Origin: Peltaster fructicola
Lineage: Eukaryota > Ascomycota > Dothideomycetes
DNA length: 64,000 nucleotides
NCBI GenBank assembly: GCA_001592805.2
Contig: CP051139.1
Span: forward strand, 4,826,229-4,890,228
Reading direction: 5' to 3'
The translations under genes were made by a program, and so were the position numbers. The notes under the pieces were generated by a model. That model worked only from the letters and a program-made list of their open reading frames with translations, ran no database searches and was not told where the DNA came from. Shown piece after piece: positions 2,952-64,000 of this stretch. Numbering within the stretch: the first letter of the stretch is position 1; each line of letters starts with the position of its first letter.

Positions 2952-3444
2952 TCGAACGAGGACTCGGTGCTTTTGCCATCACATTATCTCTTTCGCACAT
3001 ACGGACTCTATCATCACAGCAGCAGCGTCATGTATCAAGGAGAGCGTGCTCTTACTATACACAAGTTCCAGCTCAGGGTGAGTTACAAAGTGTCGCTGCT
3101 AGCAGTCCGTGCAGTTTATTGAGGTCAAACCTCGCCCTGCTCTATGATCACCTGTACTCGTATGGCATGCAAGCGTCAAGCTGTCACCACACTCTATTGT
3201 GATTGGTCACCTTGCACATGGTACATGCAGGGTGGGACCTCGCAGCCTTGCGAGTACTGTCAACTTCTTCCTCCTCTTCTTCCCTCTCCTGCTCCAACCA
3301 CTCTTGTTGCTGATTAGCGGCACATCTGCATTTGTCGATCGACGAGTATCCGACTCACCAAGCTCGAACTCAAGCTAGGCAGCTTTCCACCAAGAACCTA
3401 CGACAACAATAACATCGGCGCTTTACTCCCACCTTTGAACGACC
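2952..3444. other. intergenic, pyrimidine-rich promoter region of the HET gene
   Basis: No gene is seen. A CT-rich run at about 3265-3312 lies 130-180 bases upstream of the HET start codon; pyrimidine-rich tracts are common just upstream of transcription starts in filamentous fungi. The promoter role is inferred. Confidence 0.4.
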
Positions 3445-4368
3445 ATGCGCCTGCTGTATCTCGACCGTGGACAGCTCCGACTTACAGAGTACCTGCACAG
3501 AGACATACCGCCATACGCCATCCTGTCCCACCGCTGGGGCACGACACAAGATGAAGTCAGCTACCTGGATATCAGAGAAGGTGCCGGAGATAGGAAATCC
3601 GGCTGGGCGAAGCTCAGGTTTTGTGGTGAACAAGCACGAAAGGATGACCTGAAGTACTTCTGGGTGGACACTTGCTGCATCGACAAGGGAAACCCACGAG
3701 AAGTCTCGAGGGCTATCGCCTCCATGTTCGAATGGTACGCCGACGCTCAGCAGTGCTACGTATACCTGGCAGATGTGACCGTCGATCCCATCAGTTCGCG
3801 TGCGGTACACAATGTAGCTTATCGGCCCTGGGAACGAGCGTTCCGCCGAAGCCAATGGTTCACACGAGGATGGACATTGCAGGAATTACTTGCACCAGCA
3901 AGAGTCACATTCTTCTCCTCCCAAGGGCTATACCTTGGCAGTCGAACAGAGCTCAGTGAGCTGATACAACAAATCACTGGCATCGACCGACAAGCACTTC
4001 ATGGCAAAGCACTCTCCGAATATAGTGAAGCTGATCGATTCAGATGGGCAGTAAATCGACAGACTTTGGAGCCGGAGGATCATGCATACTCTCTGCTTGG
4101 CATATTCGGAGTGTCTATGCTTCCATATTATGGCGAAGGCGAAGATGAAGCTTACAATCGATTGAAAGAGGCGATTATTAGGAAGAGACTCTACGATCTT
4201 ATCAAGCTCGATGTCAAGCAAGGTCGCCGCAATACCGAGGACTCTGAGCACACTACTCTTGAGGCTACAACATTGGCCAATGACGAATCTGTCAATAGAC
4301 ATCTCAATAGACATAGAGCTCGATCGCACGCTCGGCGCCTACATCAACACGGTCTGCATCCTTTTTGA
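3445..4368 (+). CDS. HET domain (heterokaryon incompatibility) open frame, N-terminal part of a broken HET-NACHT-ANK gene
   Basis: An open frame of 307 residues holding a complete HET domain, a TIR-related module that triggers cell death when incompatible fungal strains fuse. The three classical blocks are present: AILSHRWG (about residues 26-33), WVDTCCIDKGNPREVSRAI (about 73-91) and RGWTLQELLAP (about 142-152). The usual follow-on segment (DHAYSLLGIFGVSMLPYYGEG) ends near residue 235. The last residues are not conserved, and the stop codon is made by the first copy of a 17-bp tandem repeat. Downstream sequence continues with NACHT and ankyrin segments of the same expected protein, so this is probably the front end of one inactivated NLR-like gene. 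HET-only proteins are common in fungi, so a shortened product could still be made. CDS is used because the frame and domain are intact. Confidence 0.75.
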   Translation: MRLLYLDRGQLRLTEYLHRDIPPYAILSHRWGTTQDEVSYLDIREGAGDRKSGWAKLRFCGEQARKDDLKYFWVDTCCIDKGNPREVSRAIASMFEWYADAQQCYVYLADVTVDPISSRAVHNVAYRPWERAFRRSQWFTRGWTLQELLAPARVTFFSSQGLYLGSRTELSELIQQITGIDRQALHGKALSEYSEADRFRWAVNRQTLEPEDHAYSLLGIFGVSMLPYYGEGEDEAYNRLKEAIIRKRLYDLIKLDVKQGRRNTEDSEHTTLEATTLANDESVNRHLNRHRARSHARRLHQHGLHPF

Positions 4369-59065: not shown

Positions 59066-59921
59066 AAGTTGTCGGCTACACAGATGAACACTGTCGACGA
59101 CCCTCGAGGGAATGAGCGTCAGCCAGCAGTGGGCAGCCAAGTCCTGCAGCAAGACAACAATCAACAGTATCACGCGTGCTACAGTACGACTGCATCAGTG
59201 GGCAGCAGAGAAGCGCTGGAGGAACACATCGATGCACTGCAAGAGTGCGTTAAAGGACACTGCCAAATCTCGTCGTCGACAGCTGCAGGATCACGAGCAT
59301 TCAAGCATCAGTGGACAGTGACCAAGTGCTGCAGGAGTGCGTCACTGATGCCACCACTATCGGTGATACACAGGAGCTGCCGATGTCGTGCTCGGTCGAG
59401 GAGGCCGTGTTTAAACCGCACCATCGTCAGAGAGCACAGCGTCTTCCGCAATCATCCAGCCTTGCTCAGCAGAGCATATTGAGCTTCACAGAGTGCTTCA
59501 CGATCACCAAAGCTGCTGAAGAGCTGCCACCAGAGCCTTTCGTGCGGCGAAGACCAGCTCACATAGGTGGAAATTGGTGGGAAGTAGGGTGCTTGAACAT
59601 GGTCCTATAGAGTCCATACTTATATCAGTGTGTAGCTACAGAGCCACTGAGCACGCCTATGAGGTCTATATATCTATATATCCTTCCTAGAGCTCACTGT
59701 CGCTGTCGCCAATCTGAGCGCACAGACCACCTACAGCTGCGCACAGACCACCTGAATTAATGATTACATTAGGGCAGTAATCAAAAATGATCTCAACACT
59801 CAGAGCTCGTAGAGCTTAGATAGACGTATAGGTGTGTAGAGCTGCTCATTCTGATGAGAATCTATATGGTTAGGAGTCTGTAGAGTGAGAATTGAGCTCA
59901 GGGCAAAGGATCATCGAAGTA
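59066..59921. other. transition from desert to subtelomere
   Basis: CAGTGGGCAGC-type motifs at 59127, 59195 and 59308 are the last minisatellite-like traces. From about 59600 the composition changes to the AG-rich subtelomeric type. No gene is seen. Confidence 0.4.
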
Positions 59922-62900
59922 GAGTAGAGTTGGGTGAGAAACCCTAACAAATTTCCTCCACACACATGCAGAACTTCTCTCCCTTGCAGACAGAGCTATA
60001 GGCGTGTGAGGAAGCTGATAAATGGATGGATTGAGAGCTCTGATTCGGCTCTAGAAGTCACTCATACAGAGTGAGTCGATCAGAGCCATATTGGTGAAGT
60101 TGGAGATGGAATGAAGTGAAGATGAGATGAAAATCAGGGTCCAGAGGAAGTTTGTTAGTGATTTGCACCAAGCAGTTCTCCACCCTGTAGAATGAGCTAC
60201 AGGCAAGTTATCACAGTGATACATGGCTCAATCGACAGCTCAGAGTCGTAGCTACAAGTCGCTCATACAAAGTGAAGCCATCAGGGCCATATTGACGAAG
60301 TTGAAGGGGGGTACAGGCAGGTATGAGGAATACACACAAGCGTGTATTTCTGAGCATGGAGGAATGTTGTATGAGAATCACACCAGGCACTTCTCTACCA
60401 CCTACACACAGCTACAGAGCAGCTATCAGCCTGGGGGAAGCACCACTGCGTAGAGCTCGTCGAGCGCGTGAGAAGCCTTACTTTCACAGTCCCCCAGCGT
60501 CAGAAATGACTGCCCAGCTCACTGACACAAAGATGGAGAAAGAATGTATGAGAAACACTAATAAATTTCCTCTAACTCGATGTCAGTAGGTCAGGGAGTC
60601 ACTTTTCTCGCCACACACACGTCAACACAGGAAACCACGCACACGAGGGGAGTATTCAGAGCGAGGAGAGCAATTCACTCATACAGAGTGAAGCCATAGG
60701 AGTGATATTGAAGGAGTTGATAGCTGCATGCAGAAAGAGGAAGTTTGGGTGAGAATTACTAACAAATTTCCTCCACCTGAGTGTGTGAAGCACTTCACTT
60801 TGCGCAAACAGCTACAGACGTGCTATGAAGCTGATATGTGGATGGATTGAGAGCTCTCACTCGGCTCTATCACTTCCTCATACAGTGTGAAGTCATAGGA
60901 GCTATATTCGCAGAGTTGTAGGGGGATACAGGCAGGTATGAGATATACACTGTGGGGCGTATTTCTGAGCATGGAGGAATTTTGTATGAGAATCACACCA
61001 ACCGCTTCTCCACCCTGTAGATTCATCAATAATGGTGCTGCACACCTGATTCTAGTGCTAGTGGAGAGCTCAGAGCGTGCGCTTTCCAGAGGCACAGAAA
61101 TCACTTCGATAGCACCATTTTCCGTGAGTGCGCATGGTGAGGTAGAAGCGCATCACACCTGGACAATTTAGTATGGGGAACACTAACAAATTCGTCTGAC
61201 ACATGTGCGCAGCCTTCCCACCATCTAGAAGCAGCTGTAGGTGAGCTATCAGAGTGATATATGGATGGATCGAGAGCTCCGAGTCGCAGCTACAACTCGC
61301 TCATAGAAGTCATCTCAATCAGAGCTGTATTGAGAGAGTTGAGGGGGGATACAGGCAGGTATGAGAAATACACAGCACTGTGTACATGTGGGGATGGAGG
61401 AATTTTGTATGAGAATCACACCAACGACTTCTCCATCACTTTCTCGCAGCTACAGAAGAGTTATCAAGCTGATACATGGCTCAATCGACAGCTATCACTC
61501 GGCGCTAGAAGGCGCTCATAGAGCTCATCTCAATCAGAGCTATATTGGTGAAGTTGAAGATGGGATGAAGTGAAGATGAGATGAAAATAAGGGTCCAGAG
61601 AAGCTTTATATGAGAAACACACCCACCACTTCTCCACCTGATAGAATGAGTTACAGGCTAGCTACGAAGCTGATATATAGATGGATTGAGAGCTCAGAAT
61701 GAGAGCTAGAAGTCGCTCATACAGAGTGAAGCCATAGGACCTATATTGAGAGAGTTGGAGGGGGATACAGGCAGGTATGAGAAGTACTGTAGGGTGAGTA
61801 TATGTCAGAATGGAGGAAGTTTGTATGGCATTTACACCAACGACTTCTCCATCGTCTACACGCAGCTACAAGACAGCTAGCTCATATCTGACATCTGATC
61901 TGAGATGAGACGGTCGAGGAGCTCCTAGAAATCACTGTTTCGAAGCTCCTGTGCGAAAACTCAGAAAGCTCAAAATCAGGCACCAAGGCAGAAAGGGTCT
62001 TGGAGGAGCTTTACTAGCAAAACACACCAACGACTTCTCCACATCCTACAGACAGCTACAGGCCACGTAGAGACATGATATATGGCTTAATCGACAGCCT
62101 AGACTCAGAGCTACGAAGCTGTCATAGAAAGTGAGTCCATTGGGTCAAAACCTGACAAGCTGAATGGCCTGTTGCAGGCGGGTATGAGATGTACGCAGCA
62201 TGTGTATATCTCAGAATGGAGGAAATTTGTATGAGAATCACACCAAGCACTTCTCCATCGTCTACAGACAGCTACAGGCCATATAACTCACTTCTGACAG
62301 CTGATCTGATATGAGACGAGTGAGAAGCTTCTATATATGAGTGTTATGAGCGTAAGGGGTCAATATTGAGAAAGTGAAAAATCAGGCAGTAAGGCATCAA
62401 GGGTCCAAGAGGAACTTTGTATGAGGATTACACCAAGCAGTTCTCCACCTCCTAGAATGAGCTACAGGCCACATAGGAAGCTGATACATGGCTTAATCGA
62501 CAGCTCTCACTCAGAGCTATCACTCTTGTACCAAGTGTGAGACGATTCACTCAGAAATGGACCAGCTGATTGGCCTGTTGCAGGCAGGTATGAGATGTAC
62601 TGTGGGGTGTATTCTTCAGAATGGAGGAAATTTGTATGAGAAATGCACCAAGCAGTTCTCCACCACTTCTGCAGCAGCTACAAGACCACCTATCGCGAAT
62701 CCGAGCTCATATATGAAGTCAGCTCGACGAGGAGCTCCTGGAAAAGCTCGAAAACAGCATAAAAGACGAAAAGTGAAAAAACAGAAAATGGTGATTTTCA
62801 CACGCCAAGACTTTCGAATTTCAGGGTCCATGGAGGAAATTTGTATGGCAAACACACCAAGCACTTCTCCACCCTGTAGAATCACGAGTAATGGTGCTGC

Positions 62901-63060
62901 ATAGCTGATATCAGCGTCAGTGAAGAGCGCAGAAGGTGGCCGTCGATCAGAGACAACAATCAGCTCGATAGCACCATTATTGGTGAGTGCGCAATGTGAC
63001 ATGTGGTCAGAGAATTTCACTTAGGAAATCACTAACAAATTTACTCCACACTCATGTAGG
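59922..63060 (+). repeat. subtelomeric array of about 205-bp half-units (higher-order unit about 405 bp)
   Basis: The anchor TGGAGGAAATTTGTATGAGA followed by a CAC...TTCTCCACC block recurs at 59922, 60144, 60359, 60536, 60737, 60974, 61161, 61397, 61598, 61813, 62003, 62219, 62409, 62624, 62833 and 63010. Between 61598 and 62624 the spacing alternates strictly (215, 190, 216, 190, 215), so two half-unit types make a unit of about 405. One half-type continues with GAATGAGCTACAGGC, the other with (C/T)GTCTACA(C/G)(A/G)CAGCTACA. Short frames reading MEE.CMRI come from the repeat itself. No gene is seen. Confidence 0.9.
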
Positions 63061-63850
63061 CAGCATATCACCATGTATACTCATGCGCAAGCAGCTATAC
63101 ATATAAGTAAGCGGATAGACTCATAGAGCCGAGTGAGAAGAGCTCATAGAAAGAAGAATGAAGTCATTCGGACGTCTGTAGCTGCAGCAGGAAAGACATG
63201 TGTCAGGACATCCACCCCAGACAAAGTTTGGTGAGAGCGCCATACAAAAGAGTCTGAAGGAAGTGCATACAGCATGTAAGTCTCGACTCAGACCAGATGA
63301 ACAGATTGTAAGCGGATAGGAGGACTCAGGGCGATGAGAAGAGCTCATATTTGATGAGATAAGTGAGAATAGTGGAAGCCTCAGGCAGAGACAAGACGAT
63401 GGTGAGATATGAGCTGTCAGGCCATGTAAACTCATGCGCGAGGGTGATGAGAGATAAGTAAGCGGATAGACTCGTAGAGCAGACCGAGAGCTGTCAATCG
63501 AAGGAAGAATCAAGTCATTCAGACACCTGTAGCTCAGGCAGTCAAGGAACATGTGTGTGAGACAAGTTTGTATGGAGAAGGCTAACAAAAGTGTCAGACA
63601 GCAGTGCACAACAGTTGTAAGTCTGGACACAGACCAGATGAACAGTTGGTAAGCGGATAGAACGAATGAGACGAGTGAGTAGAGCTCGTATATGGAGTCG
63701 AAAGTGAGTATATACAGAAGGTCATCAAGTAACAACACCATGTAGGAGACGAACTGAGAGGCGATGTAGAATGATGCGCAAGACAGTGAGAGAGATTCTG
63801 AGTAAGCCATTTGATAGGCTGAGGCGTGCGCATATCTGGAGAAGAAGAAT
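63061..63850 (+). repeat. telomere-adjacent repeat, period about 345 bp
   Basis: AAGCGGATAG recurs at 63109, 63310, 63460 and 63651, with a decayed copy at 63804. Spacings alternate (201, 150, 191, 153), giving a higher-order unit of about 345. The segment CAGACCAGATGAACAG appears in two copies 341 bases apart just before two of the anchors. The open frame 63121-63810 on the minus strand lies wholly in the repeat and is not supported as a gene. Confidence 0.85.
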
Positions 63851-63920
63851 CAGACGAAAAGAGTAAGTGATCGTGCAAGGAGAGTGGGTGGTAGATTGGT
63901 GGGTACATGGTTGTGTTGTC

Positions 63921-64000
63921 TAGGGTAGGGTAGGGTAGGGTAGGGTAGGGTAGGGTAGGGTAGGGTAGGGTAGGGTAGGGTAGGGTAGGGTAGGGTAGGG
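63921..64000 (+). repeat. telomere, (TAGGG)16
   Basis: Sixteen perfect TAGGG pentamers run to the last base of the window, G-rich strand 5'->3' toward the end, as expected for a true right chromosome end. No TTAGGG hexamer is present in the tract. Confidence 0.97.

Follow-up and report, generated by a model that had tools for sequence, protein, structure and literature searches.

TAGGG telomere arrays at the chromosome ends of the fungus Peltaster fructicola and a proposed alteration of the telomerase RNA template

How does the chromosome of a filamentous ascomycete come to end in a five-base repeat? The relatives of Peltaster fructicola are expected to use the hexamer TTAGGG at their telomeres. 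The window analysed here, a stretch of 64,000 bases that finishes at the right end of contig C1, closes instead with an array of pentamers. The original prediction had read it as the end of a filamentous ascomycete chromosome carrying 16 terminal TAGGG units and no hexamer, and both parts of that reading proved correct: the DNA belongs to P. fructicola (Dothideomycetes), and the final 80 bases (63921..64000, plus strand) consist of 16 exact TAGGG units, with 100% matches, 0 indels and the G-rich strand running 5' to 3' toward the chromosome end, whereas the hexameric sequence TTAGGGTTAGGG has 0 matches in the 64,000-base window. The array stops precisely at the right end of the contig (C1:4890228). 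The window contains 15 occurrences of CCCTACCCTA, all of them in the terminal array, compared with a mean of 0.01 in shuffled sequences (n = 100).

The array is not peculiar to this end. The genome comprises 18,987,130 bases in 5 contigs, designated C1 to C5 (4,890,228, 4,126,644, 3,676,293, 3,523,331 and 2,770,634 bases), and a survey covering 2–10 kb from each of the ten contig ends, a check that had been suggested along with the original prediction, revealed that the nine other ends also finish in TAGGG arrays. The arrays at the 10 ends contain 9–24 units each, namely, counted as complete units from C1 to C5, 15, 17, 21, 19 and 18 on the left and 16, 18, 9, 24 and 18 + 2 on the right, the last figure reflecting the sole irregular unit seen, one TGGG that interrupts the C5 right array. 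The ten arrays thus comprise 177 complete units. TTAGGG is missing from the final 300 bases of every end, and TTAGGGTTAGGG has 0 matches in all five contigs. Genome-wide, (TAGGG)4 is matched 145 times (70 forward and 75 reverse) and all of these matches belong to the terminal arrays, within 400 bases of a contig end, leaving no interstitial (TAGGG)4 array. All ten ends therefore carry a homogeneous G-rich tandem with the G-rich strand oriented endward, but the repeated unit is not the TTAGGG hexamer. The start of the array is preceded directly by GGG at five of the ten ends and by GG at one, which would fit telomerase priming on G-rich ends. Taken together, we regard it as highly probable that the window terminates at a genuine P. 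fructicola chromosome end capped by a TAGGG telomere, most likely the product of an ordinary telomerase with a TAGGG-specifying RNA template.

The TAGGG repeat of P. fructicola is itself already known. It was published in 2020 as the unit at all chromosome ends of the species, and the available portions of that report describe it as not found earlier in any fungus and as common to Giardia, in an 18.99-Mb assembly of five telomere-to-telomere chromosomes of 2.77–4.89 Mb with an N50 of 3.68 Mb (PMC7181583). The TelFinder survey of 2023 also lists TAGGG for P. fructicola (PMC10100673), but this listing is perhaps derived from the same assembly and is therefore not treated as independent. As far as the accessible text of the two reports goes, the published telomere and the one described here come from the same species and almost certainly from the same assembly, with TAGGG at ten ends (PMC7181583; PMC10100673). 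A literature search for TAGGG telomeres in Capnodiales returned the 2020 report alone; it mentions telomerase RNA 0 times (PMC7181583), and literature searches brought up no study of the telomerase RNA, its template or telomere-binding proteins of P. fructicola.

Two known systems offer the closest comparisons. Giardia duodenalis resembles P. fructicola in its TAGGG unit, compact genome and possession of TERT but is an unrelated organism, and excerpts of its description also include TAAGG and TAAGGG variants, neither of which was seen in P. fructicola, as well as a TERT without the T motif (PMC10999387). The TTAGGG telomeres of Aspergillus, an example among other filamentous ascomycetes, are likewise short G-rich arrays accompanied by TERT; however, the P. 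fructicola unit is one T shorter, and telomerase RNA has been found in Aspergillus but not in P. fructicola (PMC3603654). The same source argues that Tbf1-type proteins bind the ends, and P. fructicola likewise has a TRF-family gene.

The Telomerase_RBD domain yielded one match in the genome (E 1.7e-42; C4:518480-518878, minus strand), located in a 926-aa stop-free frame, and the P. fructicola protein record AMS68_005590 (1069 aa) contains RBD, RVT and TERT_C domains; hence, the genome has a TERT gene whose product combines the RNA-binding and the reverse transcriptase domain. The TRF domain was also matched once (E 2.5e-38; C3:2441812-2442396, minus strand), in a 456-aa frame that includes a weak Myb match (C3:2441476-2441643, minus strand; E 5.9e-4), the weakest of 18 Myb matches at 24.6 bits against a cut-off of 24.4. 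The order of the TRF and Myb domains in this frame corresponds to that of TRF1 and Taz1. Two POT1-domain matches were found in the genome, so that both a TRF/Tbf1-type double-strand binder and POT1 are represented, in terms of presence only. According to the original prediction, a changed repeat would also call for compensating changes in proteins of this kind.

Because TERT, the TRF/Myb gene and POT1-type domains are all present, an ordinary telomerase, composed of TERT and a telomerase RNA, whose RNA template has been altered to specify TAGGG is the best explanation for the pentamer; both the template change and the binding of the pentamer by the TRF-type and POT1-type proteins are inferred. 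A template run of approximately 8 bases, 5'-CUACCCUA-3', would probably be sufficient: its 3' part would pair with the terminal ...TAG, five bases would be copied and, following realignment over three bases, the cycle would repeat. The sequence 5'-CUAACCCUAAC-3' is among the filamentous-fungal telomerase RNA templates, according to the parts of the source available (PMC3603654). A template of this kind that had lost one A in its copied half would yield TAGGG, so that one small change could convert every chromosome end. A fungus that has a five-base telomere unit when its relatives are expected to use TTAGGG presents a natural experiment, in which perhaps one lost template base converts every end and tests the slack in the double-strand and single-strand telomere binders.

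The telomerase RNA was not found with template motifs, with 3'-end signals or by cmscan of three loci (L077, L078 and L082), which is a limit of the search rather than evidence of absence. Template-like places number 40 genome-wide (34 for DCTACCCTACD and 6 for CTACCCTAAC), but the reversed control patterns are commoner (123 versus 34 and 46 versus 6, respectively), so that the template motifs are not enriched. The 3' end of filamentous-fungal telomerase RNAs lies close to a splice-like site, AUAAGU, with a branch site after it (PMC3603654; PMC4299874; PMC5199203). The looser form of this signal, ATAAGT...CTAAC, has 29 places genome-wide versus 202 for its control, and it was not encountered on the same strand within 2.5 kb downstream of any of the 40 template-like places, the nearest being 4,463 bases away. 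There are 85 forward and 82 reverse matches to the 11-base run CCCTACCCTAC, of which the end arrays account for 83 and 80, respectively, and four internal places remain. The three of these that were read appear to be coding or intergenic and likewise have no ATAAGT...CTAAC within 2.5 kb downstream on their strand: C2:412394 (14-base run) lies inside a 194-aa stop-to-stop frame and, by eye, in a small frame whose start resembles that of a secreted protein; C3:2555829 (13-base run) lies inside a 162-aa stop-to-stop frame, by eye just upstream of the apparent next gene; and C4:195281 is opposite an open 144-aa frame. The cmscan of the three loci named above gave no telomerase RNA match. The stricter 3'-end pattern, ATAAGT...GCTAACT, is present at 3 places genome-wide, one of which (C3:1158602) is opposite a 1345-aa ABC transporter frame, whereas in L080 and L081, the 8-kb loci that surround the remaining two, the longest template-type run does not exceed 7 bases.

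Could the missing T simply be an error of the assembly? The original prediction had left the choice between a changed template and the loss of a T from each repeat during base calling, and it is the first of these that fits, by inference, with the present results. Under the second, the true repeat would be TTAGGG, with one T of each unit dropped by the nanopore base caller and left uncorrected. The P. fructicola assembly was indeed built on nanopore reads (PMC7181583, in the text available), and telomeres are frequently miscalled from nanopore data (PMC9414165). The miscalls described there, however, are strand-specific (TTAAAA, CTTCTT and CCCTGG, as far as the accessible text shows) and do not include TAGGG, and no such difference between strands is apparent in the TAGGG arrays, which occur at 10 of 10 ends, left and right alike and in both orientations. 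Furthermore, the hexamer tandem is absent throughout the assembly, and the authors polished the assembly with approximately 256x Illumina coverage and recovered all ten telomeres by way of Illumina reads and SPAdes (PMC7181583). Judged at the level of the assembly, a base-calling artefact is accordingly unlikely, even if it retains marginally more credit than the other alternatives.

A second possibility, to which we assign a slightly smaller chance still, is that the RNA template continues to encode the hexamer and that TERT skips or misaligns one base in every cycle, thereby producing the pentamer. In Aspergillus, some telomerases add one T more than their template specifies, which the authors read as slippage or misalignment (PMC3603654), and the P. 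fructicola TERT is highly divergent: in a 20-protein alignment, it carries 21 private changes in columns that are invariant otherwise, compared with 0–7 in the 19 relatives, and three of the 21 are clustered (D323T, Y324S and E328D). Slippage should nevertheless generate mixtures, whereas 0 of the 177 complete units are hexameric and the only irregularity is the single TGGG. Moreover, the neighbouring gene has diverged similarly. In a matched comparison of 15 species, with the adjacent RabGAP as the single control gene, private changes in P. fructicola amount to 29/225 for TERT (0–22 in the other species, the highest being 22/218 in Salinomyces) and 21/180 for RabGAP (0–11 in the others). The end branch of P. 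fructicola measures 1.62 for TERT versus 0.70–0.78 in Acrodontium, Cladosporium and Saxophila, and 0.88 for RabGAP versus 0.60–0.72 in the same three genera, that is, approximately 2.1–2.3 times and 1.2–1.5 times the length of comparable single lineages, respectively. We therefore do not claim a TERT-specific change as the cause, since the RabGAP control shows the excess to be mostly lineage-wide. The many private changes in both TERT (P0001) and RabGAP (P0121) suggest a fast-evolving lineage, and, measured against this one control gene, a residual TERT-specific acceleration beyond the lineage-wide rate is possible. With regard to the altered RNA template, a broader proposal is that the core of the telomerase RNA changed within a single fungal lineage of compact genome, that the pentamer is the mark of this change, and that TERT and the TRF-type protein have become adapted to it; we put it forward tentatively and consider it rather doubtful.

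TERT adjoins the RabGAP/TBC gene (L079 217-7203, minus strand). In Meristemomyces frigidus, one predicted protein (P0103) has both the TERT and the RabGAP/TBC domain sets, reflecting a fusion of the genes or else an erroneous gene model.

Inward of the telomere array, the window contains a subtelomeric repeat region (59558..63919, no strand assigned) shared with the left end of C1 (L031) and the right end of C3 (L037). Alignments among the three subtelomeres extend over stretches of 1.3–2.4 kb at 75–89% identity, and tandem copies of approximately 406 bases are found at 61768-62686 of the window. At C1 right and at C3 right the shared subtelomere runs up to the array; at C1 left it stops approximately 110 bases short. 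For the remaining seven ends, the inter-end matches in the outermost 10 kb are limited to one of 48 bases and one of 137 bases. Maintenance of the ends by recombination or by a transposable element, with TAGGG as merely a satellite repeat, is scarcely credible, as the repeat family common to three ends would be in keeping with it, but the seven remaining ends have next to no sequence in common with each other and yet carry the TAGGG array, there is no interstitial TAGGG array, and a TERT gene is present.

The published analysis, in the portions accessible, states that there are no homologous subtelomeric regions (up to 25 kb; E 1e-3, coverage >10%) (PMC7181583). The three-end subtelomeric family contradicts this statement; the compared lengths differ, and the alignments are long and clear. 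The last 3 kb of the three sharing ends have a G+C content of 0.46 versus 0.51–0.54. At the opposite side of the window, an open frame at 3439-4365 (plus strand) encodes a HET (heterokaryon-incompatibility) domain (E 9e-12).
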